33,641 bases of DNA, taken from NCBI GenBank assembly GCA_038065315.1, contig JBBTRF010000001.1:1-33641 (forward strand). The letters are read 5' to 3'. Each line of letters starts with the position of its first letter. Positions within the stretch are counted from its first letter, which is position 1. The DNA is from Patescibacteria group bacterium (GTDB taxonomy: Bacteria; Patescibacteriota; Minisyncoccia; Phycocordibacterales; JBBTRF01). The position numbers and the translations under genes are program-made. Positions 1,407 through 28,460 of the stretch are shown here, piece by piece. The notes below the pieces were generated by a model. That model did not search any database and had not been told where the DNA came from. It was given only the letters and a program-made list of their open reading frames with translations.

Positions 1407-1436
1407 TTGACAAAATAGCCTAAAATGGTGTATAAT
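1407..1436 (+). promoter_or_regulatory. Consensus sigma-70 promoter of DGR target 1
   Basis: Perfect TTGACA (1407-1412), an 18-nt spacer and perfect TATAAT (1431-1436). Transcription should start near 1443, giving a leader of about 220 nt before the ATG at 1661. This is the only promoter in the window with both hexamers perfect that feeds a long untranslated leader. Confidence 0.8.
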
Positions 1437-1442
1437 ATATCA

Positions 1443-1660
1443 AGTGCCGAATCTCGGTCTTTGACACGAAATTGCGAGTTTCGCCACAGCAAAGAGCGGC
1501 TTCAGTGTACGTCCGGCCAGCGGACACGACCACTGAGCCTTTCTCCGCTGTGGCGAACCGACTTCTTGTCGAGCGATCCCTTCCGTATTACAGATCCGTT
1601 TGGATCTGGTACGGTAGGACACTATTGATATGGGAAGACGCTGTAACCGCGCAAATACAC
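1443..1660 (+). promoter_or_regulatory. Long structured 5' leader of DGR target 1
   Basis: The leader contains an 11-bp perfect outer pairing, TTCGCCACAGC (1480-1490) with GCTGTGGCGAA (1547-1557). Nested inside are TCAGTG/CACTGA and GTCCG-GCCAG-CGGAC. A second hairpin follows: CAGATCC (1591-1597), loop GTTT, GGATCTG (1602-1608), extended by CCGTA/TACGG (1583-1614). No coding frame here is convincing. The GCTGTGGCG string recurs about 110 nt upstream of the second target gene, which suggests related leaders. A regulatory role is inference. Confidence 0.5.
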
Positions 1661-2395
1661 ATGAAGACATCGACCCAAAAGCAGCTGAACCAACTTCTGG
1701 CCCAGTTGCTGACTACCGTCAAGCCGGCCCAATTGAGTCACGAGCGCATCCAGGTTGCCATCAAGGATACCGACGGTCTCGCTGCTTGTTTCTGCGAGTT
1801 CGTGAACAACTACCCGGTCGCTACTCCGAAGGTGGTGCCTGCCGAACAATCTGCCACCCTCATCTCTGTCCGCAAAGGCATCCCCCTCGGCAACCACAAG
1901 GCCCGACCGATGTCGAAGTTGTTCCGGAACCGTGACGGCGTCATCTTCTACTACCGCGATGGCGATTTCGATAACTGGTTTGCCGAGAACTCTCCGGAGT
2001 GTTCAGCCGGCACTGCCGAACTCGTCGAGACTTCCTGTGTCATGAAGTTCAGGCAGATGACCCAATTGGCTACTGGTCTCGCTACCGAGTCCATTCCCGA
2101 TCTCACCCGTGCCATCACCGCGAAGAAGCTCGACATCACTCCAGCCCAATGGGATGACGCCATCGCTGCTTCCCAGAAGGGCGAGGACGTCCTCCTCACC
2201 GATGGCCGAGCTAACTTCGCTTTCGCGAGAAGCGGGAAAAAGTTAAAGGATGAGAAAGGCAAGGAATACGACGAGGTGGTGATGCTCTACGCCGGCCGCG
2301 ACGGCAGCGGCCGGTGGGTTGCCAACGTCTACAGGCTCTACAACGACGACGGGTGGAATGCCGGTGCTGGGCTGCTCCTTCGCAACTCGCCCTAG
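1661..2395 (+). CDS. DGR target (variable) protein 1
   Basis: The 244-residue product ends in the variable repeat, so its last ~40 residues are rewritten by the retroelement. By analogy with other DGR targets this C-terminus is expected to adopt a C-type lectin-like fold that displays the variable side chains on a ligand-binding surface; the fold is inferred. No signal peptide or membrane segment is visible. Residues ~70-200 resemble the second target in this window (shared: IPLG, YRDGDFD/HRDGDFD, ATESI, KKLKDE), so the two are paralogs. The ATG at 1661 is preferred; an in-frame TTG at 1472 lies inside the structured leader. The stop codon follows VR1 by about 10 nt. Ligand and cellular location are unknown. 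Confidence 0.85.
   Translation: MKTSTQKQLNQLLAQLLTTVKPAQLSHERIQVAIKDTDGLAACFCEFVNNYPVATPKVVPAEQSATLISVRKGIPLGNHKARPMSKLFRNRDGVIFYYRDGDFDNWFAENSPECSAGTAELVETSCVMKFRQMTQLATGLATESIPDLTRAITAKKLDITPAQWDDAIAASQKGEDVLLTDGRANFAFARSGKKLKDEKGKEYDEVVMLYAGRDGSGRWVANVYRLYNDDGWNAGAGLLLRNSP
2272..2383 (+). repeat. DGR variable repeat VR1
   Basis: A gapless 112-nt match to the TR at offset 381. It differs at 18 positions: 16 are at template adenines (half of the 32 A's; A to G, T or C) and only 2 at the 80 other positions (C to G at 2279, G to T at 2339). The last 14 nt, GGCTGCTCCTTCGC, are identical in TR and VR1 and contain no A; they fit the role of the initiation-of-mutagenic-homing (IMH) site. Confidence 0.95.
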
Positions 2396-2434
2396 GACCC
2401 TCGGACACTTTGTCCCTTCGGTTCTTTCACGCTT

Positions 2435-2468
2435 CCCCTGGCACTACGGTGTTAGGGGATTCTTTTTT
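2435..2468 (+). terminator. UACG-loop hairpin terminator after DGR target 1
   Basis: A 10-bp stem with two G-U pairs runs from CCCC (2435) to GGGG (2458). It is closed by a C(UACG)G tetraloop, a member of the very stable UNCG class, and is followed by ATTCTTTTTT. The same hairpin recurs after the second target. It starts 51 nt after VR1. Some DGRs need a hairpin or cruciform downstream of VR for target recognition, so a dual role is possible. Confidence 0.8.
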
Positions 2469-2494
2469 ACATTTTTATCCTTCTTTTATATACT
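2466..2494 (+). promoter_or_regulatory. Promoter of the TR RNA
   Basis: TTTACA (2466-2471), a 17-nt spacer and TATACT (2489-2494). The -35 overlaps the T-run of the preceding terminator, so target gene and TR RNA are compact but separate transcription units. Expected start near 2501. Confidence 0.7.
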
Positions 2495-2652
2495 TATCAT
2501 CAAGAATTTGCTGGCATGCTCGGCGCAAGCTTGGTGTGGCGAATTCTGCAACATTCAAAAAAAGAAATAGTTGGTGCCTCGCTCTGGCGAGAAATCGTCT
2601 CGGCATACAATTCAGCCCGGAGAGCATTCAATGGGCAGTGTCATGGATGGGG

Positions 2653-2764
2653 CGAGGTACAGATGCTCTACGCCAACCGCAACGACAACGGCCAGTGGAA
2701 TGCCAACGTCAACAGGCTCGACAACGACAACGAGTGGAATGCCGGTAATAGGCTGCTCCTTCGC
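2653..2764 (+). repeat. DGR template repeat TR
   Basis: A 112-nt template rich in AAC/AAT codons: read in the VR frame it would encode ten Asn. It has 32 adenines, and none in the last 14 nt, which form the IMH-like end. Adenine-directed differences to VR1 and VR2 identify it as the donor copy. Confidence 0.93.
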
Positions 2765-2777
2765 TATTCTTCCTTTT

Positions 2778-2801
2778 CTCCCGCTTACCGCGGGAGTTTT
2801 T
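2778..2801 (+). terminator. Terminator of the TR RNA
   Basis: CTCCCGC (2778-2784), loop TTACC, GCGGGAG (2790-2796) and TTTTT. The loop contains the stop codon of the opposite-strand avd-like gene. There is no T-run on the minus strand, so it acts on the plus strand only. Confidence 0.8.
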
Positions 2802-3165
2802 GTTTCACGGAACAGATCCAGCCGTACAGCATCTGGCTCTCCGCGACCAACTTTTCATTGAGCACGATAAATTTCTTGTCCTCGATAATTTTCATTTCCC
2901 ATCCGATATATAAAAAGAATTTTATAAGATCCAGGTGTTCTTGAGCCATGAGTATCCAGCGGATTTTTTCTTCCCCATGAGCGTAAGTGGCTCGATAAAT
3001 CGATTTCAAGGCCTCGGTAAAGGAATCTTCTATCTTTGCTCCGATGCCCAGTCGAACAGGCTTCGGAAGATTACTGCTATAGGAAAACCACAGAAAATAA
3101 CTCTCTTTTAGGTGTTGTAGCACTGGCAAAATTGTCGGGGGGGGTAGACTTTCTAGTATGCGCAT
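2785..3165 (-). CDS. avd: Avd-like DGR accessory protein (four-helix bundle)
   Basis: Avd is the pentameric four-helix-bundle partner of the DGR reverse transcriptase; it binds RT and RNA and is needed for mutagenic retrohoming. This 126-residue product matches the family length (about 125 residues). It also has its landmarks: an early LYxxW-like segment (SYFLWFSY), an FPKxxR-like turn (LPKPVRLGIGAKI, about residues 35-47), a long helix rich in A, Y and K, then DLIKFFLYIGWEM and a C-terminal GW segment (MLYGWICSVKQ). Basic residues are plentiful, fitting nucleic acid binding. The ATG at 3165 is the earliest possible start, since a stop codon precedes it directly. The opposite-strand placement, convergent with TR and head-to-head with RT, is unusual. 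Assignment is by pattern and context. Confidence 0.75.
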   Translation of the reverse strand: MRILESLPPPTILPVLQHLKESYFLWFSYSSNLPKPVRLGIGAKIEDSFTEALKSIYRATYAHGEEKIRWILMAQEHLDLIKFFLYIGWEMKIIEDKKFIVLNEKLVAESQMLYGWICSVKQKLPR

Positions 3166-4159
3166 TCAGTTGGTTCATGCCTACGAAGATATCACATCCC
3201 TCGAAAATCTGCTCCTTGCCTGGCGCGAATTTTCGAGGGATAAAAAACAGAAGAGAGACGTGCAGCTTTTCTCTCTTCAACTGATGGAAAATATCTTGAA
3301 CCTTCGGGCAGAGTTGGTTGCCAAAACATACGTTCACTCTCCCTACAAGGCATTCGCTATTACCGACCCGAAGCCGCGCAGTATTCATAAGGCGTTGGTG
3401 CGAGATCGCTTGTTGCACCACGCTCTGTGTCGAAAACTCTACCCATTTTTTGATCGAACGTTTATCAGCGATTCGTATTCTTGTCGAATTATGAAAGGCG
3501 TTCATCTGGCATTAGACCAATTTCGGACTTTTGGAAGAAAAGTCTCACTCAACCATACTCGCACCTGCTGGGTGTTGAAATGCGATGTTCGGAAATTCTT
3601 CGCTTCCATCGATCATTTCATCCTTATTGATATACTAAAAAAGTATATTGCCGACCCGGATGTTGTCTGGTTGATCGAAAGAGTGGTCGATGGTTTTCAG
3701 AGTACTGCGCCAGGCAAGGGGCTGCCGCTCGGCAATCTCACCTCGCAGCTTCTGGTGAATATTTATATGAATGAATTTGATCAATTTGTGAAGCATCGAC
3801 TCAAGGTAAAGTATTACATTCGATATGCGGATGATTTCGTCATCTTTCACGAACAGAAAAAAGTGCTTGAGCGCCAGTTGCGGGACATGTCTGATTTTTT
3901 GGAACATGAACTAAAGCTTTCGCTTCATCCAGGCAAGGTTTCAATCAAAACACTTGCGTCAGGTGTCGATTTTCTGGGTTGGGTGCATTTTCCGCACCAC
4001 AGAGTTTTGCGTTCGGTGACAAAACGGAGGATGTTCAAGCGCCTGGCCGCAGCAGATTCATTGGCGACAGTTCGGTCGTACTTGGGACTGTTGAGCCATG
4101 GCAACACTTACTACCTGTGCGAAAAAGTCGCACAGTATGAGCGGAATATGCTAAAATGA
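3158..4159 (+). CDS. DGR-type reverse transcriptase
   Basis: A 333-residue RNA-directed DNA polymerase, within the normal DGR-RT size. It starts with YEDITSLENLLLAWREFSRDKK, typical of this family. It carries fingers motifs (KPRSIHKALVRDRLLHHAL), motif A (LKCDVRKFFASIDH), the DGR/Abi-type motif 4 GLPLGNLTSQLLVN in place of the intron/retron QGxxxSP, and the catalytic box YIRYADDFVIF. FLGW follows in the thumb-proximal part. There is no maturase or endonuclease domain. Its expected role is error-prone copying of TR RNA at adenines. The ATG at 3158 overlaps the avd-like start on the other strand. GC content appears lower than in neighbouring housekeeping genes, which may indicate transfer. Confidence 0.93.
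   Translation: MRIQLVHAYEDITSLENLLLAWREFSRDKKQKRDVQLFSLQLMENILNLRAELVAKTYVHSPYKAFAITDPKPRSIHKALVRDRLLHHALCRKLYPFFDRTFISDSYSCRIMKGVHLALDQFRTFGRKVSLNHTRTCWVLKCDVRKFFASIDHFILIDILKKYIADPDVVWLIERVVDGFQSTAPGKGLPLGNLTSQLLVNIYMNEFDQFVKHRLKVKYYIRYADDFVIFHEQKKVLERQLRDMSDFLEHELKLSLHPGKVSIKTLASGVDFLGWVHFPHHRVLRSVTKRRMFKRLAAADSLATVRSYLGLLSHGNTYYLCEKVAQYERNMLK
4152..4157 (+). promoter_or_regulatory. -10 element of the DUF5069-pheT unit, inside the RT 3' end
   Basis: Extended -10 TGC-TAAAAT, ending 8 nt before the DUF5069 ATG; no good -35 is seen. Just upstream an inverted repeat CTGTGCG (4115-4121)/CGCACAG (4129-4135) lies within RT coding sequence and could be an operator. Confidence 0.45.
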
Positions 4160-4616: not shown

Positions 4617-6599
4617 ATGTCAATGAAAGTCTCCCACAACTGGCTCCAATGCTATTTCGAAAAGCCGCTTCCGACAGCGGAAAAGCTTGCTGAGCTGTTC
4701 ACGTTCGGCGCTTTTGAGGTGGAGGGGATTGAGAAAGTGCTTGATGCGCAGGGAAAGCTCACCGACACCGTCATCGACGTAAAAGTCTTGCCCGACCGAG
4801 CTCATTACGCACTCTGTCATCGAGGGGCCTCGGGCGAAGTTTCTGCGCTTGCCGGCTTGGCGCGCAAGCCGCTCAACAGGCAGCCATTTGCCGAAACTTC
4901 GACTCGGAAAGTTGAGGTAAAGAATCTCGAGTCGAAGCTCTGCGCTCGATATGTCACCCGCTACGTCGAAAATATCACTGTCGGCAAGACGCCCGACTGG
5001 CCACGATTCTGGCTCGAAGCGATCGGCCAGCGCTCCATTAACACCGTCGTCGATGCGACCAACACGGTGATGTTCGACATGGGCCAGCCGCTCCACGCTT
5101 TTGATGCCGACAAAGTGAAGGGTCCGATCACGATTCGTCTTGCCAAGGCCAACGAAAAAATGACCACACTCGACGGCAGTGCCGGGGCGGGGAAGGAGAT
5201 TGAATTGTCTCCGGAGATGCTCGTGATCGCCGATGATGCCGGTGTGCTGGCGGTGGCTGGAGTGAAAGGCGGTTCGCGAGCCGCTGTCACCAGCGAGACA
5301 AAGAACCTCATCCTCGAGGCAGCGTGTTTTGATCCTGTGTCCGTGCGCAAGACCAGCACCAAGATCGGCATCCGCAATGAATCTTCGAGACGTTTTGAAA
5401 ATGAGATCACACCGCACCTCGCAGCCGACGCCATGTATTGGCTCACCGCGCTCATTTTGGAACAGTCAAAGAGTGCAAAAGTCGGACCGGTGACCGACAT
5501 TCACGGTGAGCTTCCCGAGCTGGTCAAAATGGAGGTTTCGGTCGAACAGATCAATGCGATGTTTGGCGTTGCCATTCCTACAGGCATAGTCGTCGACTTG
5601 CTCAATCGGCTTGAACTCAACGCTGTGATTTCTGGCGGCGCGAAAGGCGTAAAAGGTGACACATTCACCCTCACCATCCCGTATGAACGTCTCGACTTGC
5701 GGATTCCTGCCGATATCGCCGAAGAAGTCGGCCGCCTCTACGGCTACGACAAGATTCCGTACACCGCGCCAGCGAAGCGTCCGCTCGCAACTGCCAACAA
5801 GACTTTTTATTATTGCGAAAAGATAAAGAATGTACTCATCGCCCAAGGCTTCTCTGAGGTGTACGGCTATGCTCTGGCCGCCAAGGGTGATTTTGAGGTG
5901 GCAAAGTCGCTGGCTGCTGATAAAGGCAAGCTTCGCACCAATCTCGCCGACGGCATGGCGAAGTCGCTTGAGATGAATGTTCGCAACGCCGACTTGCTTG
6001 GCCTCGAGACAGTTGCTATTTTCGAAATCGGCACTGTTTTTAGCGCCGCCGCTGAAACCACCTCTCTCGGCCTCGCCGCACAAATGGTGAAGAAAGTGAA
6101 AGGGAAGAAGAGCGAGGATGTTTTGAATAATGCGCTTGAGGCGATTGCTGGTGGGCTCAGTATCACGCTCCCTGCGGCCAAAGTCCAGGTGGCTGCTACT
6201 GGCGGTGCGCTGCTCGAGCTGAATCTCACCTCGCTCATCACGACACTCCCTGCGCCAGCCTCCTACACCGACCTCGGCTTTACTCGCGCTATCGACACTA
6301 AATACAAGCCGTTCTCAGCGTATCCGTTCATCACACGCGATATCGCACTGTTTGTTCCGGCTGGTACGGATGAGGCGGCTGTTCGCACCGCCATCGCCGA
6401 CTTGCTCAAGAAGATCGCTGGTAACCTCGTGGTGAAAGGCCCTGACTGCTTCGATCGATTCGAAAAAGACGGCAAACTCTCGCTCGCGTACCGCATGATC
6501 TTCCAGTCATACGAAAAGACGCTCTCCGATGAAGAAGTGAACGCGCACATGACCGCGCTCCACGAAGCGGTGAAGGCGAATGGGTGGACGGTGCGGTAA
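4617..6599 (+). CDS. pheT: Phenylalanyl-tRNA synthetase beta subunit, short form
   Basis: PheT supplies the editing and tRNA-binding parts of PheRS. The 660-residue product starts directly with MKVSHNWLQCYF and carries the B3/B4 editing region (about 100-310: RSINTVVDATNTVMFDMGQPLHAFD), the B5 module (IAEEVGRLYGYDKIP, near 375) and a C-terminal ferredoxin-like anticodon-binding domain (TRDIALFVP ... SLAYRMIFQSYEKTLSDEEV). The roughly 100-residue EMAP/OB tRNA-binding module found in longer bacterial PheT is absent. ATGs at 4617 and 4623 are both possible; MKVSHNW at 4623 is the family-like start. DUF5069 lies directly upstream. pheS is separated from it by the DGR. Confidence 0.95.
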   Translation: MSMKVSHNWLQCYFEKPLPTAEKLAELFTFGAFEVEGIEKVLDAQGKLTDTVIDVKVLPDRAHYALCHRGASGEVSALAGLARKPLNRQPFAETSTRKVEVKNLESKLCARYVTRYVENITVGKTPDWPRFWLEAIGQRSINTVVDATNTVMFDMGQPLHAFDADKVKGPITIRLAKANEKMTTLDGSAGAGKEIELSPEMLVIADDAGVLAVAGVKGGSRAAVTSETKNLILEAACFDPVSVRKTSTKIGIRNESSRRFENEITPHLAADAMYWLTALILEQSKSAKVGPVTDIHGELPELVKMEVSVEQINAMFGVAIPTGIVVDLLNRLELNAVISGGAKGVKGDTFTLTIPYERLDLRIPADIAEEVGRLYGYDKIPYTAPAKRPLATANKTFYYCEKIKNVLIAQGFSEVYGYALAAKGDFEVAKSLAADKGKLRTNLADGMAKSLEMNVRNADLLGLETVAIFEIGTVFSAAAETTSLGLAAQMVKKVKGKKSEDVLNNALEAIAGGLSITLPAAKVQVAATGGALLELNLTSLITTLPAPASYTDLGFTRAIDTKYKPFSAYPFITRDIALFVPAGTDEAAVRTAIADLLKKIAGNLVVKGPDCFDRFEKDGKLSLAYRMIFQSYEKTLSDEEVNAHMTALHEAVKANGWTVR

Positions 6600-7370: not shown

Positions 7371-9599
<2,229 letters not shown>

Positions 9600-9899: not shown

Positions 9900-10658
9900 A
9901 TGACGACGCTTGTTGTCAAAAAGTCGAATACGAAAGGTGTGCCGAGTCTGGAAGAGGCATTGACATTCTTGAGTCGGCTCGCTGATTTGCAGCGAAGGTT
10001 GAAGGAAGGTTCGCTCAACCCTGGCCGTGTGAACAAGAGTCTCCAGTGGGTTTCGGAAGGGTGGGGGATTGTTGAGGGAGCAAAAGAGGTGACTGATCGA
10101 TCAGTCTTACCTTCTGTTACTGACTGCACCCTCCACTCCGACATCCCGCTCGGCGAACATGAACCTCATCGGATAGCGGACCTCTTCATTGACGGCCGTG
10201 GTGTGAAATACGGTCACCGTGATGGTGATTTCGACCGCTGCTTCACTGCATACTCATCAAGGTGTCCCGGCGATACCGCCCGCACTGTCGCGACCCCCAG
10301 GGTCATGACGTCCAAGCAAATGGCGCAGTGGGTGACAGGGAACGCTACCGAGTCCATCCACGACCTCTCCCGAGCCATCGTCGCCCAGAACCTTGACATC
10401 AATCCAGCTCAGTGGAACGATCAGATCATTGCGACCCAGAACGGCAAAGACATCCTCCTCGTGAACGGCTACGCCAGCTTTGCCTTCGCACGGACTGGCA
10501 AGAAGCTTAAAGATGAAAATAAACAGAAATACGACGAGGTTGTCGTGCTCTGCGCCGACCGCAGCAGCGACGGCCAGTGGGTTGCTGGCGTCCACGGGCT
10601 CGACAACGACCGCAAGTGGCATACCGACGACAGGCTCCTCCTCCGCAACTCGCCCTAG
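9900..10658 (+). CDS. DGR target (variable) protein 2, remote paralog
   Basis: A 252-residue paralog of the target protein at 1661-2395. Similarity runs from about residue 80 (DIPLGEHEPHRIADLF, YGHRDGDFDRCF) through ATESIHDLSRAIVAQNLDINPAQWND and FAFARTGKKLKDEN to the variable C-terminus ending LLLRNSP. The N-terminal ~75 residues are unrelated, so the partners or location may differ. The last ~40 residues lie in VR2, and the protein presumably binds ligands through that surface. It is 6.9 kb from the TR. It has its own copy of the UACG hairpin after the stop codon and is enclosed by elements A and B, which together look like a unit. No signal peptide is visible. Confidence 0.82.
   Translation: MTTLVVKKSNTKGVPSLEEALTFLSRLADLQRRLKEGSLNPGRVNKSLQWVSEGWGIVEGAKEVTDRSVLPSVTDCTLHSDIPLGEHEPHRIADLFIDGRGVKYGHRDGDFDRCFTAYSSRCPGDTARTVATPRVMTSKQMAQWVTGNATESIHDLSRAIVAQNLDINPAQWNDQIIATQNGKDILLVNGYASFAFARTGKKLKDENKQKYDEVVVLCADRSSDGQWVAGVHGLDNDRKWHTDDRLLLRNSP
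10535..10646 (+). repeat. DGR variable repeat VR2
   Basis: Gapless 112-nt alignment to the TR at offset 7882. Of 29 differences 18 are at template adenines (of 32) and 11 at the other 80 sites, including two in the IMH-like end (CTCCTCCTCCGC against CTGCTCCTTCGC). The adenine bias persists, but background divergence is much higher than in VR1. It is either an old target drifting away or one matched to a second TR outside the window. Confidence 0.85.
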
Positions 10659-10712: not shown

Positions 10713-10748
10713 TCCCCTGGCACTACGGTGTTGGGGGATTCTTTTTGT
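10713..10748 (+). terminator. UACG-loop hairpin terminator after DGR target 2
   Basis: Nearly identical to the hairpin after target 1: a 10-bp stem with G-U pairs from 10713 to 10736, loop TACG, then ATTCTTTTTG. It begins 66 nt after VR2. Confidence 0.8.
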
Positions 10749-19608: not shown

Positions 19609-21690
19609 ATGTTCTCGCCGTTCGAGTATCAGGCGGAGTGTTGCGGAAAGATTTCCGAAGCACGCGCTGCGGGGGCCAACAAAGCTCTCGTGGTAATGGC
19701 AAGCGGTCTCGGTAAGACTGTAACCTCGGCATTCGATGTCCAAAAATGGTTTGCCGATCAGGGACGCGGTCGCTTGTTATATCTCTGTCATCAAAACGAG
19801 ATTCTTCATCAGGCGAGTGCGACATTTCAAAGTGTCCTCGGTCCAGACTATCGCTTCGGTCTCTTCAATGGTCATGAAAAGAGGATTCATCAGGCAGACT
19901 GTGTCTTTGCATCGCTTCGGACAGTTCTAAAGCATGGCAGGGATGTGTTCAGGCCCAATGAGTTCGATTACGTAGTCGTCGATGAGAGCCATCATACTCC
20001 TGCGCCGACCTATCTCAGTGCTGTCCAGTTCTTCACGCCAAAATTTCTCTTGGGTCTGACAGCAACGCCAGATCGCCGTGACGGATTAAGTATTCGAAGT
20101 GTCTATGGTAACGAGGTCTATTACCTCCCTTTGGAAGAGGCGCTTAGCAGAGGCTTGCTCACCCCGGTCGATTATCGACTTGTGACGGATGATATTTCTG
20201 TCGGAGACGTAAAGACCAGGGACGGATTGACTGTCGACGATCTCGACGAGCAGGTATTCGTTCCCAAACAGGATAGGGAAGTCGCTTCCGTCATTCTTCG
20301 TCACGCGAAGGAACTTACGGAACCGAGGACGATCGTCTTTGCAAACTCGATAGCCCACGCCGACAGGATCTCCAAACTGCTGCCTGAAAGCGTAACCATC
20401 CACTCGAAGGTGTCTGCCAAGGAACGAATGGTGCGTCTCGAGCTCTTCCGTCTTGGTTTGGTTCAGACTGTGGTCACTGTCGACTGCTTCAACGAGGGTG
20501 TCGATATTCCACAGGCAAATCTGATCGTCTTCTTGCGCTCGACGGCATCGCTCACGATTTTCTTCCAGCAACTGGGAAGGGGACTTCGCCGCTACGAGGG
20601 CAAGGAAAAAGTCAGGGTGCTTGATTTCGTCGGCAACTGCAAACGGATCATGATGCTCAAGGAATTATCAGATGTCACTCAAAGACGTGAGAGGACCCGG
20701 CTGTCTAAGCCGTTGGGTCCGCGATCGGTCAAGGACATTGCAGGTGTCGAAAAGACGAACTTCGGTGGTCTCGGGATCTCCTTCGACGAGAAGACTCTCG
20801 AGGTTCTCGATATCGTGAAGCGTGTCCGTCCAAACCGGATCTCGGACAACGAACTCTTATTCAACGAATATTCGCCTCGCAACGCGTTGGCCGCATCCCA
20901 TCTCTCTGCCAAGACCTGGCGAGAAGTGTGGTGGGTCTGCGATGTCTGCAAACACGAATACAAGATGAGCGCAGCATTGCGTCTGTCTGGTAAGAGTTGC
21001 CCCGCCTGTGCAGACCGAGTCACGGAAGACAATAGTTTGCTGGTGTTGCAGCCGGCACTTGCTAGAGAGTATTCCATAAAGAACCCACTTGCTTCCTGGC
21101 AGATAAAGGCAACTTCGCCGGAAGTATTCTGGTGGCAGTGTCGGACCTGCCAGTTTGAATGGCGGGGCAGAGCCCGTAGTCGTGTGCATCGTGGTGATGG
21201 TTGCCCTGCTTGCGCAGGACAAATGCCGCAATACCAGAACAATCTGGCACTGAAGTTTCCTGAGATCGCTGCCGAATATTCCGACGTCAACATGTTGTCG
21301 CCTGAACACGTCGGTTGTCACAGTCGTCCGCTTCGGTGGTGGATCTGTGGATCTTGCGGGAAAAGCTGGCAGACAAGTGCTGACATGCGAACACGGTACG
21401 GCCTAAGGTGTGCAAACTGTGTGCCTAAGATCGTCTCGGTTGGTCAAGGTCAAAAACCTTCAGCACCGCAAACAAACATCATCATCGAACATCCTCATTT
21501 GGCAGAAGAGTATGCCTCTCGCAACCGTATTCCGGTCGAAGAAGCTTTGGTAAGATCGCCAGATCCGTTGTGGTGGCTTTGTTTTGATTGCGGCCGCTAC
21601 TGGCAAGCCAGTGTCCGACAACGCCTCGAAGGTGCTCGCTGCGTCCTTTGTCATCCGACCACCTCTGTTGAGGTGGAAGTAATCGTGTAA
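19609..21690 (+). CDS. SF2 helicase with C-terminal zinc-ribbon repeats
   Basis: The 693-residue protein has an SF2 (ResIII/DEAH-like) motor: Walker A ASGLGKT (~30-36), VVVDESHH (DExH, ~125), LTATP, and motif VI QQLGRGLRR (~325). From ~410 there are four repeats of ~60 residues, each with WWxC-x2-C and a second C-x2-C pair: CDVCKHE...CPAC, CRTCQFE...CPAC, CGSCGKS...CANC and CFDCGRY...CVLC. They resemble DUF4379/treble-clef zinc ribbons (HPxLAxEYsxxN...). The array is likely to bind nucleic acid or guide a nuclease; none is encoded here. AAAGGAA lies 6 nt before the ATG. The neighbour at 21837 is a paralog with a different array. Confidence 0.88.
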   Translation: MFSPFEYQAECCGKISEARAAGANKALVVMASGLGKTVTSAFDVQKWFADQGRGRLLYLCHQNEILHQASATFQSVLGPDYRFGLFNGHEKRIHQADCVFASLRTVLKHGRDVFRPNEFDYVVVDESHHTPAPTYLSAVQFFTPKFLLGLTATPDRRDGLSIRSVYGNEVYYLPLEEALSRGLLTPVDYRLVTDDISVGDVKTRDGLTVDDLDEQVFVPKQDREVASVILRHAKELTEPRTIVFANSIAHADRISKLLPESVTIHSKVSAKERMVRLELFRLGLVQTVVTVDCFNEGVDIPQANLIVFLRSTASLTIFFQQLGRGLRRYEGKEKVRVLDFVGNCKRIMMLKELSDVTQRRERTRLSKPLGPRSVKDIAGVEKTNFGGLGISFDEKTLEVLDIVKRVRPNRISDNELLFNEYSPRNALAASHLSAKTWREVWWVCDVCKHEYKMSAALRLSGKSCPACADRVTEDNSLLVLQPALAREYSIKNPLASWQIKATSPEVFWWQCRTCQFEWRGRARSRVHRGDGCPACAGQMPQYQNNLALKFPEIAAEYSDVNMLSPEHVGCHSRPLRWWICGSCGKSWQTSADMRTRYGLRCANCVPKIVSVGQGQKPSAPQTNIIIEHPHLAEEYASRNRIPVEEALVRSPDPLWWLCFDCGRYWQASVRQRLEGARCVLCHPTTSVEVEVIV

Positions 21691-21694
21691 CTCC

Positions 21695-21729
21695 AACCCC
21701 TTGCGGCTTCGTGCCGCAAGGGGTTCTTT
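21695..21729 (+). terminator. Terminator of helicase 1
   Basis: AACCCCTTGCGGC, loop TTCGT, GCCGCAAGGGGTT and CTTTATT: a 13-bp stem directly after the stop codon. Confidence 0.9.
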
Positions 21730-21742
21730 ATTGCCACAAACA

Positions 21743-21771
21743 TTGACATTATACATTTTTTATTTTACTAT
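21743..21771 (+). promoter_or_regulatory. Promoter of helicase 2
   Basis: TTGACA (21743-21748), a 17-nt spacer and TACTAT (21766-21771). Start near 21778, leader ~59 nt. The leader resembles that of helicase 1 (ATTTCAGCCA... and a purine-rich site before ATG), supporting duplication of the whole unit. Confidence 0.65.
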
Positions 21772-21836
21772 CGAATTTGGTTCAGCTATTTAACATTTCA
21801 GCCAACTCAATCAACCCTCAACCCAAGAGAGTCCCT

Positions 21837-23834
21837 ATGATCCAGCCCTATTGGTATCAGGAAGATGGCCTCAAAGCCATCCAGCGCGCTCGACAAAAAG
21901 GCGCTGTGGCAGCCCTCGTGGTCATGGCCAGCGGTCTCGGTAAAACTGTCACAGGAGCATTCGATTGTCTCCGCTTTCGGAAGATGCATCCTAAGGCCAG
22001 GGTGCTCTACCTCTGCCATCAGAACAACATTCTTCAGCAGGCTCGAACCACTTTCGAGGTGATTCACGGTAACGAATGCTCCTTTGGTTTCTATCATGGG
22101 ACGAAAAAAGACCTCGACAAAGTCGATTTCCTTTTCGCTTCACTACAGACGATGCGGAAGCAGAGAAAGAGCTTTCGTCCTGATGAGTTCGATTACGTCA
22201 TCATTGATGAAAGTCATCGGACCAGTGCCGACACGTATCTGGACGTCGTTGAGTATTGGAAGCCGAAATTCCTACTCGGAATGACAGCGACACCCAATCG
22301 CACCGACGGCCAGGATATTCGAAAAGTGTTTGGCCGGGAAGTCTTCTACTTACCTCTTGAAGAGGCGCTCGCTCAGGGATTGCTCGCTCCAGTCGATTAC
22401 CGACTTCTGACGGACGAGATTCAGCTCAAGCGGGTCATCGAAGCACCCGGCCACCGCCTCAGTTTGGCAATGCTCAACCGAAAGGTCTTTGTCGCTAAAC
22501 GTGACGAAGAGATCATTTCGCTGATTCAGAAACATATCCGAGCAGTCATCGATCCAAGATCGATTGTCTTCTGTGAGTCCATCGAGTATTGCGACCGCTT
22601 GTCCCGGCTCATGCCGAACAGTATAGCGATCCATTCGAAGGTGTCTTTCAGAGAGCGAGTCATTCGTCTCGAGATGTTTCGTCAAGGAGTGATTCCGACA
22701 TTATTGGTCGTTGATGTGTTTAACGAGGGCATCGATATTCCGAAAGCGAATGTCCTTGTGTTCCTGCGCTCTACGTCATCGCCGATTGTGCTGTTTCAAC
22801 AACTCGGCCGTGGCTTGCGGCTCAGCGAGGGAAAGACAGGTGTGCTGGTGCTCGACTTCGTCGGCAACTGCGAACGAGTGAAGACCATCTACACCCTTTG
22901 GCAGGATGTTGCGACTAGACGTCAACACTTCTTGGCAAGGCCGCCGACCGGTCCAAAAGCCGAGAAGCTAGCAGTGAGAAGGCAGACCGAACCGTTTCTG
23001 TTGAATGTGGACCATGTTCACTTCCAGGAAAAAGCAGTTCAGATTACCGAGCTTGTTCGTCGAATTACTGAAGGATACACACGAGACGAGATGGTCGCAC
23101 TGCTCAAGGGTTTCGCTGCGAAGCTCGGCCGCTCGCCGACACAGGTTGAAGTGCAGGGCAACAAAGAAATGCCGAGCGGTGCTGCGTTGAGTAACGAATT
23201 CGGTAATTTCTCTAATGCACTTCTGGCCGCGGGACTTGCCGTAAATCAGATGCTCAACGTGTCCGACGAAATCCTTCTTGAGCAATTACGAGTCTTGAGA
23301 GACGAGCTCGGCCGATCGCCGACTCAAAAGGATATCGCTGCTGGTTCAAAGGCCGGTAGGTGTTCGTGCGAACCGGTGTTCCGGAGTCATTTCGGTTCCC
23401 TAGGGGCCGCACTTGAGAAGATTGATGCAAAGCCAACAAAGTATGTCGGTTTAGGGAAGCCTGCACTCATTAAACAGCTTCAAGCCTTGCACACTGAGAA
23501 TGGAAGAACTCCATCCGTAGACGATGTTATACAAGCGTCCGCGGACCACAAAACAGCCAGCCCTAACGTCTTTCGCCAAGCCTTTGGTTCTTGGAGTCAT
23601 GCGCTCCTTGCAGCTGGTCTGGTAGAGAAGGCTAAAAAACCGAAACGGTATTCGGAAGCCGACCTTATCAGCCAGCTCCAGAAGGCTAAGATGATCTTGG
23701 GACGACGGCCTTCTTGCGGCGACATTGAGCGCTTACGCAAACAGGGTCAGTTGTCGGCAAGCGTAGGGGCCTTCTGTGGACGCTTCGGCTCCTTCACTGA
23801 GGCGCTTATAAGGCTTGCTCAGGCCGATGGTTGA
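21837..23834 (+). CDS. SF2 helicase with C-terminal HNH-associated repeats
   Basis: A paralog of the preceding gene with the same motor (Walker A ASGLGKT, VIIDESHR, MTATPNR, FQQLGRGLRLSEG), about 665 residues from ATG 21837. A TTG at 21777 precedes the transcription start and is rejected. The C-terminus is different: four ~55-residue repeats, each with LGRSPT/GRTPS/GRRPS and ending FGSxxxALxxAGL, from residue ~420 to the end. They match the homing-endonuclease-associated repeat pattern (HNH_repeat), which is thought to bind DNA. No HNH catalytic motif is seen. The shared motor with exchanged binding arrays suggests two helicases working on different DNA features, perhaps in defence or repair; this is inference. 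Confidence 0.87.
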   Translation: MIQPYWYQEDGLKAIQRARQKGAVAALVVMASGLGKTVTGAFDCLRFRKMHPKARVLYLCHQNNILQQARTTFEVIHGNECSFGFYHGTKKDLDKVDFLFASLQTMRKQRKSFRPDEFDYVIIDESHRTSADTYLDVVEYWKPKFLLGMTATPNRTDGQDIRKVFGREVFYLPLEEALAQGLLAPVDYRLLTDEIQLKRVIEAPGHRLSLAMLNRKVFVAKRDEEIISLIQKHIRAVIDPRSIVFCESIEYCDRLSRLMPNSIAIHSKVSFRERVIRLEMFRQGVIPTLLVVDVFNEGIDIPKANVLVFLRSTSSPIVLFQQLGRGLRLSEGKTGVLVLDFVGNCERVKTIYTLWQDVATRRQHFLARPPTGPKAEKLAVRRQTEPFLLNVDHVHFQEKAVQITELVRRITEGYTRDEMVALLKGFAAKLGRSPTQVEVQGNKEMPSGAALSNEFGNFSNALLAAGLAVNQMLNVSDEILLEQLRVLRDELGRSPTQKDIAAGSKAGRCSCEPVFRSHFGSLGAALEKIDAKPTKYVGLGKPALIKQLQALHTENGRTPSVDDVIQASADHKTASPNVFRQAFGSWSHALLAAGLVEKAKKPKRYSEADLISQLQKAKMILGRRPSCGDIERLRKQGQLSASVGAFCGRFGSFTEALIRLAQADG

Positions 23835-23921: not shown

Positions 23922-26900
23922 CTATACGAGGGCCTTCACCTTCTCCACTAGCAAGCTCACTTCGCCGTTGCGGTGAGAGACTTTTCCTTTGATCGCGATG
24001 CATTTTTCGAGCACGATGAGGGATTTGAATTCGATGAGCGTTCGGGGAAACACCACCGCCTCCATCGAGCCGGACAGGTCGGCGATCTTCATGAACACCA
24101 TTTGCTCGCCCTTCTTCGTGGCGATAGGGCGCATCTCTTCGATGATGCCCGCGACCACCACGATCGTGCCTTCTTTGCCTTCCTCGCGAATCTTTTTCAC
24201 ATTCACATCGCGCTTCTCGAGGATGTCGCGATATTTGTCGAGCGGGTGGCCGGAGACGTAGAGACCGAGAAGCTCTTTTTCCCACGCGAGGCGGTCGGTC
24301 ATGGGAGCGGCCGGCACGGGCGCGAGCTTCAGAGTGGCACCGCTGCCGGCCGCAGCACCCGAAAGGCCGCCAAACAGAGAGTCTTGGTTTGCCGACGCTT
24401 TCGCCAATTCTTTGTTGTACATGAGCAAGGTCTCAATGTTGGCGAGCATTACGCCGCGTTCGCCGAGCTCGTCGAGTGCTCCGGCCTTGATCAGCGCTTC
24501 GAGCGTTTTCTTGTTCACATTTTTGTCCTTCACACGCTCCAAAAAATTGCTGAGCGAAGTGAATCGGCCGGCACGCTTCCGCTCCTCGATGATCGCGGTC
24601 GCCGCGCCTTGGCCGAAATTTTTGATCGTCACCAACCCGAAACGGATGCGATCTTTTTCGCTTTTCTCTGCACCTTTCACAATGGTGAATTGGCTGAAGC
24701 TTTCATTCACCGACGGCGGCAACACAGGGATGCCCATACGTTTGCATTCGGTGATCGTTTCGCCGATTTTTTCAACGTCGCCGGAGTCGGCGGTGAGCAC
24801 GGCCGACATATAGATGGCGGGGAAATTGGCCTTCATGTATGCCGTTTGGTATGCGACACGGCCGTATGACGCTGCGTGCGAGTTGTGTACGATGATATCG
24901 TTCGCCACAAAATTGTGATGGACGGGCATACTGATGTCGTACGTCATTTCTTTTCCGGCAGGAAGGATCGACACGACCTCGTCCCAGTAGATATCCGATT
25001 GCGAGTGGTTCAGTATATCCGGAGAGGCTAGTACGTTACCCATCCGTGTCAACACTTCACGTTGGTAGCCGATCTTTTTTGCATCATATGAAAATAACCT
25101 CTCTGCAAGCCCTGTCTGATAAGCCGCTTCACGAACAGTTATCTTTTGTTCACACATGACAGACCTTACTAGATTCATCACTGCGGCCGGGATGACATCT
25201 TTCGTTCCGCGTGCAGCAATGGTTGCGATCAAATTGCATTGACGAAGCAGGTCGATAAGCAGTCGTTTCTTCTTGTCTATCAAATGTGTGCCGATCGTTT
25301 CTCCAAAGCGTGCCAGGTTTTCTCGATGACAGATTGTTACGTTATAACCTATTTTAATTCCGCCTCGATAGTTGAACTTTTTTCGATGAATAGTGCTCGT
25401 TATCTCAAAACGAACAAGAAGATGCTGCACGTCTCGGGCAAGTTGAATTGAGCTGGTGGAATAAAATACTTGCTGGTTTTGTGGGCTCACACAGCCATCT
25501 CCCTGCCACATTTTGCCAAGCAGGAGTGCTTGAGTTTCCTTTTTCCACCGGAAGACTTCTCTGGGAATTGACTTTTCGGTAGCTTTTTTCCCAGTCAGCT
25601 CGAGGCGGATAAGCCATTTTTGAAGAGAGTTCCCCAGTCTCTGATTCTTCTGCCCACAGTACACAGATGCTGCCGGTTTGCTTCGGTCAATCGTGAACTT
25701 GCTGTTCTCGAACTGTTGTGCATGAAAAATAAAATCGCTGATTTCATCTTCCTGCGTTGAGTAGTAGTAAGGTCCATGCGGATGACAAAGATTTCCTTCA
25801 GCGATAAGATAGCCAAGCGTCGCCGCTCGGTAAGCTGGGATCTCTAAGCCACTTTTAACTGATAGTTTCCTAGGTATCGCAATTCGCTCGCCAATCTCTA
25901 GTGTTCCTAGATTTTTCCATCCATTAAATGTCAAAAATGGGTGGTTGTCGGTTGCGCGAATGCTGCGGCCAGTGCGGGTCTTGAGTTCGAATATATTTTT
26001 GACACCGTTCTGTAGCACTGCTGATATTTTTTGAGGTACCAGTTTTTTGGTTTCATTCAAAGAATGGAGCGAGATGTGTTTGTCGCTCTCATATAATTCT
26101 TTCACGGTGAACATCGCACCACTTTTTGCGTCGGTAATTCGTGTGTCGCCTGTCACGCATTTGTTGAAACCGTAGGCGGCGAATGGTTCAATGAGGGTCC
26201 AGAGCTCCTTTGCTGTGTCCTCTTTCATCCCGTTTTTTACCAAACCCGCGATGAGTTTCCCCTTCTGCTCCTCCATTTCTTTCGGAATCTTTTTGCCCAT
26301 CGCCTTTCGGAGCTTATCGGCCTCGAGCCACGAGTAGCCACCGAGCTTGATCGCTGTGAGCATGACGTCGTCCTGGTAGGTGATCACACCGTACGAGCGG
26401 TCCAAAATATCTTTTAGGCGCGGGTCAAGGTATCGAATCTTTGAATGGTCGTGTTTGCGCTCGATATAGTCTGGAATTTTTTCCATCGGACCCGGTCGGT
26501 ACAAAGCCACCATCGCATTGATGTCGTGGATGGTCGAAGGCTTTAGATCTTTGAGGAAGCGCGTCATGCCGGAGCCGTTGAGCTGGAAGAGGCCGATGGT
26601 CTCGCCGCGGGCGAGCATTTCAAATGTTTTTTTGTTAGTGACGTCGACGTTCTCAATGTCGACAGTGACGCCTTCGATTTTTTTCACACGATCCACCGCA
26701 TCGGCGAGGATGGAAAGGTTTTTGATACCGAGGAAGTCGAATTTAAGCAGGCCCATACCATCTTCGCCGACGCCATGCATGTCGTATTGAGTGATGATTT
26801 TGTCTTCGCCCTTGGTATCGTACTGGAGGGGTACGTATTCAGTGAGGGGTTGCGGGCCGATCACCACGCCAGCAGCATGTACGGAGATGTGGCGGGCACA

Positions 26901-28460
26901 GCCTTCGATCTTTTTCGCCATCTCGATAATCTGCTTCGTGTCATCGTCTTCTTTGTACAGCTTTTTGAGCTCGGGCACTTCGTCGAGTGCGCGGTCGATG
27001 GTCATTGGGAAGCCTTGGGCGCCCATCGGGATGAGTTTGGAAATCTTGTCGCCGACTTCATAGCCGAAACCCATCGCACGGGCGACATCTCGTACTGCTC
27101 CGCGCGCCATCATTGTACCGAATGTGCCGATCTGTGCGACGTGATCTTTACCGTATTTTTTGCGGGCATATTCGATCACCTCGTCGCGACGGTTGTCGGC
27201 GTAGTCCATATCGATATCGGGCGCGGAGGGTCGCTCAGGGTTGAGGAATCGTTCGAAGGGGAGCTTGTATTCGAGCGGATCTACATTTGTGATGTGTGCG
27301 AGATAGGTCACGAGTGATCCTGCAACCGAACCTCGAATCGTGGTGAGAATATTGTTTTCATGCGCAAAACGGAGCAGATCGGACACCACGAGGAAATATT
27401 GTGCGTAGCCTTTGTCCTTGATGACCTTGAGTTCGTATTCGAGACGTTGGAACATCTCTGGTGTCTCAGCGATGTCGCGTGTCTTAATGCCTTCGTAGGC
27501 AAGGAACCTGAGCTCATCGTCGTATGAGCGCCCGCTCTCCACGATGTAGTTCGGGAACAGCCATTTGCCGAGGGTGAGGTCGAGGTTGCACATTGCTGCG
27601 ATCTTGGCGGTGTTGGCGAGCGCTTCGGCGCCAATCGCAGCATCTTTTTTGAACAACTTCTCCATCTTCTTGGTCGTCATGAAAGAGAAGTCGGTGTCGT
27701 CGGCGCCGAGGCCGCCATTGCCACCGCGATCGCCACCGTCACCGGAACTGTTTACCATCATCAAAGTGTTGCGCGCCTGTTTGTCGTCGGGAGAGATATA
27801 ATAAATATCGTGTGCGGCCACGAGTGGGGTGTTGGTCGCTTTGGCGATGGCGATGATGTGTTCCATCAGTGCCTCGTGTCCTTCAATACCGGTGTGGTGA
27901 GTGATTTCGAGGAAGACATTTTCTGCGCCGTAGGTGGTTTTGTAGAAAGCGATAATCTCGCGAGCTTTTTCCTGTGCCTCCGGTGCTTCTGGACCCGCCG
28001 CGCCGCGCAATGCCGCCGCCACTTCGCCTCCGAGGGACGGGATGATACACACCAGCCCGGCGGGGTATTGTGAGATGAGCTCGCGATCGAGCCGCGGCTT
28101 GTAATAGAAGCCGTCAAAGTGGGAGATAGTCACCAGCTTCACCAGGCTCTTGTAGCCGGCGTGGTCCTTCGCCAGGAGTATTAGGCGGGTGCGTCGATTG
28201 TCCACGCCGGCCTGCTTGTCTTTGCGCGAGCGCGCCGCAATGTACGCGTGCACTCCGATGATCGGCTTGATGCCGGCCTTTTTGCAATCTTTGTAAAATT
28301 CGATGGCACCATACAAGCTGCCATTGTCGGTGAGGGCGATCGCCGTCATACCGTCTTCCTTGGCTGCCTCGATGAGGTCCGGAATTTTTGGCAGCGCCGC
28401 CAATAGGGAATAGTGGCTGTGGACGTTTAGGTGGACAAAATTATTTGGCTGGGTGGACAT
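23922..28460 (-). CDS. dnaE: DNA polymerase III alpha subunit with in-frame intein
   Basis: The replicative polymerase, 1512 codons, of which 426 are an intein, leaving 1086 residues, a normal size. The N-terminal PHP domain starts HLNVHSHYSLLAALPKIPDLIEAA. The polymerase core has PDIDMDYADNRRDEVIEYARKKYG with the metal-binding aspartates. The intein interrupts the core at AYGFNK / SHAASYG, a highly conserved site. A helix-hairpin-helix region and a C-terminal OB domain follow (VVVAGIIEEMRPIATKKGEQMVFMKIADLSGSMEAVVFP). No separate proofreading exonuclease is encoded here. A start near 28500 gives a leader of ~40 nt. It is convergent with helicase 2. Confidence 0.96.
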   Translation of the reverse strand: MSTQPNNFVHLNVHSHYSLLAALPKIPDLIEAAKEDGMTAIALTDNGSLYGAIEFYKDCKKAGIKPIIGVHAYIAARSRKDKQAGVDNRRTRLILLAKDHAGYKSLVKLVTISHFDGFYYKPRLDRELISQYPAGLVCIIPSLGGEVAAALRGAAGPEAPEAQEKAREIIAFYKTTYGAENVFLEITHHTGIEGHEALMEHIIAIAKATNTPLVAAHDIYYISPDDKQARNTLMMVNSSGDGGDRGGNGGLGADDTDFSFMTTKKMEKLFKKDAAIGAEALANTAKIAAMCNLDLTLGKWLFPNYIVESGRSYDDELRFLAYEGIKTRDIAETPEMFQRLEYELKVIKDKGYAQYFLVVSDLLRFAHENNILTTIRGSVAGSLVTYLAHITNVDPLEYKLPFERFLNPERPSAPDIDMDYADNRRDEVIEYARKKYGKDHVAQIGTFGTMMARGAVRDVARAMGFGYEVGDKISKLIPMGAQGFPMTIDRALDEVPELKKLYKEDDDTKQIIEMAKKIEGCARHISVHAAGVVIGPQPLTEYVPLQYDTKGEDKIITQYDMHGVGEDGMGLLKFDFLGIKNLSILADAVDRVKKIEGVTVDIENVDVTNKKTFEMLARGETIGLFQLNGSGMTRFLKDLKPSTIHDINAMVALYRPGPMEKIPDYIERKHDHSKIRYLDPRLKDILDRSYGVITYQDDVMLTAIKLGGYSWLEADKLRKAMGKKIPKEMEEQKGKLIAGLVKNGMKEDTAKELWTLIEPFAAYGFNKCVTGDTRITDAKSGAMFTVKELYESDKHISLHSLNETKKLVPQKISAVLQNGVKNIFELKTRTGRSIRATDNHPFLTFNGWKNLGTLEIGERIAIPRKLSVKSGLEIPAYRAATLGYLIAEGNLCHPHGPYYYSTQEDEISDFIFHAQQFENSKFTIDRSKPAASVYCGQKNQRLGNSLQKWLIRLELTGKKATEKSIPREVFRWKKETQALLLGKMWQGDGCVSPQNQQVFYSTSSIQLARDVQHLLVRFEITSTIHRKKFNYRGGIKIGYNVTICHRENLARFGETIGTHLIDKKKRLLIDLLRQCNLIATIAARGTKDVIPAAVMNLVRSVMCEQKITVREAAYQTGLAERLFSYDAKKIGYQREVLTRMGNVLASPDILNHSQSDIYWDEVVSILPAGKEMTYDISMPVHHNFVANDIIVHNSHAASYGRVAYQTAYMKANFPAIYMSAVLTADSGDVEKIGETITECKRMGIPVLPPSVNESFSQFTIVKGAEKSEKDRIRFGLVTIKNFGQGAATAIIEERKRAGRFTSLSNFLERVKDKNVNKKTLEALIKAGALDELGERGVMLANIETLLMYNKELAKASANQDSLFGGLSGAAAGSGATLKLAPVPAAPMTDRLAWEKELLGLYVSGHPLDKYRDILEKRDVNVKKIREEGKEGTIVVVAGIIEEMRPIATKKGEQMVFMKIADLSGSMEAVVFPRTLIEFKSLIVLEKCIAIKGKVSHRNGEVSLLVEKVKALV
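24882..26159 (-). mobile_element. DnaE intein with LAGLIDADG endonuclease domain
   Basis: The 426-residue intein is residues 768-1193 of the precursor. It begins with Cys (CVTGDTRI), block B is TDNHPFLT-like (RATDNHPFLTFNGW), and it ends VHHNFVANDIIVHN followed by extein Ser, as needed for protein splicing. Two LAGLIDADG-type helices are visible: LGYLIAEGN and LGKMWQGDG. Both acidic residues are present (E, D), so the homing nuclease may be active. The C-extein +1 residue is Ser and the flanks are GFNK and SHAASYG. Confidence 0.93.

Follow-up and report, generated by a model that had tools for sequence, protein, structure and literature searches.

A complete diversity-generating retroelement of Patescibacteria with a reversed avd gene and a putatively phase-variable repeat at the avd start

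The window analysed here, a stretch of 33,641 nucleotides from a Patescibacteria group bacterium (assembly GCA_038065315.1, contig JBBTRF010000001.1, positions 1 to 33,641 of the forward strand), contains a diversity-generating retroelement (DGR) whose accessory gene, avd (accessory variability determinant), is reversed and carries a short repeat in its early codons. Sequence analysis reveals that the DGR is complete, with a target gene possessing a variable repeat (VR), a template repeat (TR), avd, and a reverse transcriptase (RT) gene, and that it spans positions 1661-4159. An earlier sequence-only reading had begun the element at 1407; the likely start of the target gene is instead the ATG at 1661. 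Target gene 1 (1661-2395, + strand) is an open reading frame of 244 amino acids, with VR1 (2272-2383, +) at its 3′-end, encoding the C-terminus. The TR lies at 2653-2764 (+). The two repeats align over 112 nt without a gap and differ at 16 of 32 template adenines versus 2 of 80 other bases (Fisher p = 5e-8 for the bias over a slightly longer stretch of 114 nt). Because adenine is the sole biased base in it, the + strand copy adjoining avd is the TR, and the bias also sets the direction of copying. Both repeats end in the same 14 A-free nucleotides (GGCTGCTCCTTCGC; 2370-2383, +, in VR1 and 2751-2764 in the TR), which resemble an initiation of mutagenic homing (IMH) site, and right after this end (IMH/IMH*) their flanks diverge. 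The difference counts and the shared end given in the earlier reading were reproduced exactly on recomputation.

A second target gene (9900-10658, +; 252 amino acids) is found 7.5 kb away, past pheT and gyrB. Its VR2 (10535-10646, +) belongs to the same TR, from which it differs at 18 of 32 A sites and 11 of 80 other positions; two of the differences fall within the IMH (GGCTCCTCCTCCGC). Both VRs end just 5′ of the stop codons of their targets. With 2 non-A differences from the TR in VR1 and 11 in VR2, VR1 has been rewritten more recently than VR2, and the second target looks like an older or now unused one. The earlier suggestion that VR1 had been rewritten recently therefore holds relative to VR2, while recency as such is at most hinted at. 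A hairpin (CCCCTGGCAC-TACG-GTGTTAGGGG) followed by a T-rich stretch can be read at 2427-2470 (+), and is conserved 3′ of VR2 too, at about 10714-10747; it is probably a terminator and/or the DGR target hairpin. Targets 1 and 2 are 44% identical (52% over residues 59-244 of target 1), and homologous target genes are present in many patescibacterial DGR loci. An A-biased TR/VR pair was found in 173 of the 176 related loci tested, the pooled differences amounting to 2892/5471 at A sites and 229/16009 elsewhere, and in the related loci with such a pair the TR always lies between the VR and avd. The presence of several DGRs or several VRs has precedents, both in this group and among DGRs in general (PMC10907252, PMC6642488). 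The AlphaFold model of target 1 has a mean predicted local distance difference test (pLDDT) score of 75.6, with parts of the C-terminal half at about 90, and places the hypervariable residues in a β-rich C-terminal region. A search of this model against PDB and BFVD gave no match at E<0.001, and the modeled C-terminal region may have a fold other than that of C-type lectins.

The RT (3158-4159, +; 333 amino acids) carries the motif GNLTSQ, which conforms to the GxxxSQ of DGR enzymes. Its best solved relative is the RT complex of the Bordetella phage BPP-1 DGR (8ub7, 3.8e-41), far ahead of group II and other RTs (2e-19 or weaker), and it matches PHROG 1423 at 8e-108. The avd gene (2785-3178, −) is convergent with the TR, its stop lying near 2785, and its start overlaps that of the RT on the opposite strand. 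The Avd-like protein is matched by the NCBIfam (1.4e-7) and PHROG (6.5e-9) Avd models at scores under the curated cut-offs for a single sequence; 65 of 65 aligned relatives match the Avd model. A profile search against PDB sequences returned nothing relevant for Avd, but a fold search aligned the AlphaFold model (pLDDT 93.5) with BPP-1 Avd (4dwl) at template modeling scores of 0.78/0.89. Every feature of a DGR that can be tested in the sequence (A-biased TR/VR, DGR-type RT, Avd, and IMH) is present, and both the RT and the Avd assignments of the sequence-only reading are borne out. That reading did not extend to VR2 and target 2, two sister DGRs, the reversal of avd, or the repeat tract within it, and the last of these is the most interesting feature of the locus.

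Three RVT_1 genes were found in the genome, which comprises 794 kb in three contigs and is 96% complete. Each of them is part of its own complete DGR, in which target, TR, avd, and RT are all present. In all three, avd is opposite in strand to the TR and the RT and divergent from the RT. The same arrangement, with avd upstream of the RT and on the other strand, holds for 189 of the 193 patescibacterial RT hits that have an Avd, a total in which some loci are counted in both collections. Where avd was detectable in the viral and phage controls, it lies on the same strand in 25 cases and departs from this in 8, the latter on contigs with RTs 47-62% identical to that of the window. Across the related loci the TR comes first and its end is separated from the end of the avd reading frame by a median of 17 nt, and avd and the RT overlap head to head at their starts. 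The DGR of BPP-1 (mtd, avd, TR, brt; NC_005357) shares with the window a target with a VR, A-specific TR/VR differences, an IMH, an Avd of the same fold, and an RT of the same family. By comparison, its avd lies upstream of the TR on the same strand and has no repeat at the start, whereas that of the window is reversed and lies between the TR and the RT. In BPP-1 the TR is followed directly in the RNA by a spacer, to which RT and Avd bind and from which cDNA synthesis is primed (PMC12875486). This spacer is free in BPP-1, whereas in the window the RNA at this place would, from the gene order, be antisense to avd. A search of the DGR locus against Rfam, with E up to 1, gave no match.

In the window the avd tract is an uninterrupted C8 on the coding strand (3137-3144, −; G8 on the + strand), a putative switch for phase variation by slipped-strand mispairing; the corresponding tracts of the sister DGRs are G9 and G10. 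The whole genome contains five G/C runs of at least 8, three of which are the avd tracts. The other two, both of 8, are located at L012 2344 (G000:C1:62843), with the avd tract of the third DGR about 4 kb further downstream, and at G000:C1:419636. A total of 169 unique loci with avd on the opposite strand were compared, 7 from viral contigs and 162 patescibacterial. A short tandem repeat at the 5′-end of avd is found in 159 of the 162: 142 have C6-C14 (including L215, read by eye), 15 a dinucleotide repeat, (CT)n, (GA)n, or (CA)n, and 2 a tetranucleotide repeat, (GTCA)8 or (AACC)10. One of the remaining three has CCG codons and two lack a repeat. In a phylum-wide sample of 32 further loci the repeat occurs in 22, including (CAAT)7, (CT)18, and (GA)23, and most of those without it have more distant RTs. 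No such tract was found at the start of the same-strand avd of canonical DGRs, including BPP-1. Locus L040 has a G10 run at 8896-8905, 12 nt upstream of an avd ATG, in the leader and outside the coding part; it belongs to a second, different DGR on the contig, whose avd and RT share a strand.

The enrichment is local. In the first 80 loci, 68 of 80 junctions contain a G run of at least 8, whereas 895 kb outside the junctions contain five such runs of G or C. The 19.7 kb of junctions contain 51 long perfect repeats (at least 10 positions longer than one unit), all with units of 1, 2, or 4 nt; the 1.2 Mb of flanking DNA contains 25, among which units of 1 and 2 nt are absent. The repeats also vary between related loci in length and even in unit: L209 and L250 possess the unrelated repeats (GTCA)8 and (AACC)10 with avd 79% identical, and L074 (C13) and L086 (C9) have avd 85% identical. 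L053 and L251 carry compound repeats, a C run beside (TC)n, which suggests that one repeat type can change into another. Conservation of a Pro-Pro-Pro motif as the cause of the tract is ruled out, as CT, GA, CA, GTCA, and AACC substitute for it and the frame is not kept.

One might suppose that the DGR is an ordinary one and that the G tract, about 13 nt upstream of the RT start, simply serves the RT as a ribosome-binding site or 5′-untranslated element. Indeed, the commonest distance from the tract to the next in-frame RT start is exactly 13 nt (34 loci), and both G tracts and (AG)n are purine-rich on the RT strand. However, the repeat on that strand is in some loci (TC)n, (TG)n, (TGAC)n, (GGTT)n, or (ATTG)n, most of which cannot pair with the anti-Shine-Dalgarno sequence, and a ribosome-binding site needs neither a perfect repeat nor the avoidance of units of three. 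The repeats without a purine run on the RT strand rule out a Shine-Dalgarno role as the general cause of the tract, and we regard this explanation as very improbable. With respect to the RT itself, about 25 loci have no ATG, GTG, or TTG between the repeat and the RT domain. Loci L012, L020, L048, L070, L075, L091, and about 20 others have either an RT frame that is open through the repeat or no such codon before the RT domain. In those about 25 loci the repeat may, judging by the frames, affect the RT as well.

In 141 patescibacterial loci with a homopolymer, the reading frame was called from the nearest upstream ATG without an intervening stop, the ATGATA/T of the RT antisense being disregarded. 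The avd start ATG is in frame in 32 and displaced by one base in 65 and by two in 44, a mild but significant excess of out-of-frame starts (p = 0.003). When any stop-free ATG within 60 nt is counted, avd is open in 41 of 143. L030 and L093 (CCG codons), which lack a slippery repeat, are both in frame. In the window, avd is open from the ATG at 3165 with the present G8 (126 amino acids) and with G11, and the ATG at 3178, homologous to the start in other loci, is in frame at G7 and G10; neither is open at G6, G9, or G12. The switch of the window would therefore have one closed phase and two open ones, which differ in the N-terminus of Avd.

Out-of-frame starts of this kind could come from assembly error or from decayed avd pseudogenes, since the genomes are mostly metagenome assemblies and homopolymers are error-prone. 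Against this, the repeat is kept at one place in most loci, it also exists in di- and tetranucleotide versions, and the three DGRs of a single genome differ in tract length. In addition, avd stays open, and its ratio of nonsynonymous to synonymous substitution rates (dN/dS) is 0.06-0.16 in 14 related pairs, many with out-of-frame members; at about 0.1, these values indicate that the gene is under purifying selection. We consider error or decay hardly credible. An assembly gap (N) falls exactly in the avd tract of L248 and at the avd junction of L294, as expected if repeat length differs among cells. The comparison involved one genome per species, and the sole pair that is 99% identical has an assembly gap in the tract.

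A further explanation is that programmed ribosomal frameshifting or slippage of RNA polymerase yields some Avd at any genomic tract length, which would make switching at the DNA level unneeded. Selection for slippage would keep a frame-blind tract of 8-12 nt, and a subset of loci (e.g., L046, L052, L074, L086, L204, and L219) have perfect hairpins of 9-11 bp, differing in sequence, directly 3′ of the repeat on the avd strand. Stems of at least 7 bp follow the repeat in 16 of 161 loci versus 0.75% in shuffles, a minority feature rather than a general one, and the hairpin is missing from most loci. Moreover, the required shift varies by locus (0, +1, or −1) with no fixed direction of recoding, and tetranucleotide repeats are poor substrates for slippage by either polymerase or ribosome. 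Recoding appears quite improbable. Each of these rivals, whether ribosome binding, recoding, or assembly error and decay, fails at least one of the main observations.

We propose that slipped-strand phase variation of avd switches targeted hypermutation on and off, and that this is a working type of DGR shared across the clade; we put the probability of this reading at roughly 0.85. The avd repeat is perfect and short, its unit is not a multiple of three, and it lies in the 5′ part of the frame; its length varies between related genomes, shifting the start in and out of frame. At the sequence level, the repeat, the mixed and nearly random frames, and the purifying selection together are the signature of a phase-variable contingency locus. 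In the proposed mechanism, + strand RNA containing the TR would be copied, with errors at A, by the RT together with Avd, and the cDNA would replace VR1 (and formerly VR2 also) in the target genes. Slippage during replication of a repeat with units of 1, 2, or 4 nt would move the avd start codon in or out of frame. ON cells would make Avd and hypermutation would be possible, whereas in OFF cells there would be no Avd and the target would be frozen. Tract length would accordingly be expected to change within populations, and Avd to be absent in the OFF frame. Nonsense mutations in avd reduce the activity of the BPP-1 DGR to background, about 1e-9, in E. coli (PMC12875486); because loss of Avd abolishes activity there, the closed phase should, by analogy, halt mutagenic retrohoming here.

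Several points weigh against this proposal. The avd of the window is open from its second ATG (3165) at G8, and so is not simply off. Start codons are predictions, and a shorter Avd might be made constitutively from an in-frame TTG or GTG 3′ of the tract. Tract lengths come from assemblies rather than reads, and homopolymers can be off by one, from which the tetranucleotide repeats are exempt. The dependence on Avd, finally, is that known for BPP-1 only.

The DGR parts the usual pheST pair, being inserted between pheS (605-1354) and pheT (4617-6599), so that a hypermutating element is flanked by two essential genes. Elsewhere in the window, the gene for the α subunit of DNA polymerase III (DnaE; 23922-28460, −) has an intein inside, with the N-terminal splicing region at residues 768-844, and 19609-23834 encodes two adjoining related helicases (ResIII/Helicase_C), of which the first carries four DUF4379 treble-clef zinc fingers.

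The genes switched at known contingency loci are mainly surface, glycan, or restriction genes. The loci of Campylobacter and Neisseria (poly-G/C; e.g., PMC8355987, PMC3786947) share with avd a G/C tract or short repeat in the 5′ part of the frame and a mixture of frames between genomes. Unlike them, the gene with the repeat here is the accessory factor of a hypermutation machine, which would place the switch on the mutator. The Patescibacteria-restricted DGR clade 2 (Roux et al. 2021, PMC8144416) shares with the window the host group and comprises cellular, aquatic DGRs; the RT of the window presumably belongs to the same RT clade. That paper makes no mention of avd, orientation, or strand. 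DGRs, the Patescibacteria-restricted clade (PMC8144416), and phase variation are each already known separately. In a literature search by titles and abstracts the combination of a DGR with phase variation was not reported; DGR surveys were covered in part, so an earlier mention of a reversed avd is possible.

To our knowledge, the regulation of DGRs is largely unknown, and constant hypermutation of a useful protein is costly. If the proposal is true, avd would look short, frameshifted, or absent in annotations, heterogeneity of tract length is predicted in deep Patescibacteria metagenomes, and the locus would represent a natural design for tunable targeted mutagenesis. More tentatively, and with the balance of our judgment against it at present, targeted hypermutation may be bet-hedged and phase-variable in much of the Patescibacteria, with a shared repeat at the head-to-head starts setting the frame of avd and also, via the 5′ leader of the RT or, in the about 25 loci that lack a usual RT start 3′ of the repeat, via the RT frame, the output of the RT; with the TR-RT transcript antisense to avd, this would constitute a two-sided mutator switch. 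Should phase variation of avd itself be true, an OFF state in most cells would keep a good variant in the clone while a few ON cells explore, and two classical diversity mechanisms, phase variation and the DGR, would be joined in one switchable-mutator circuit.

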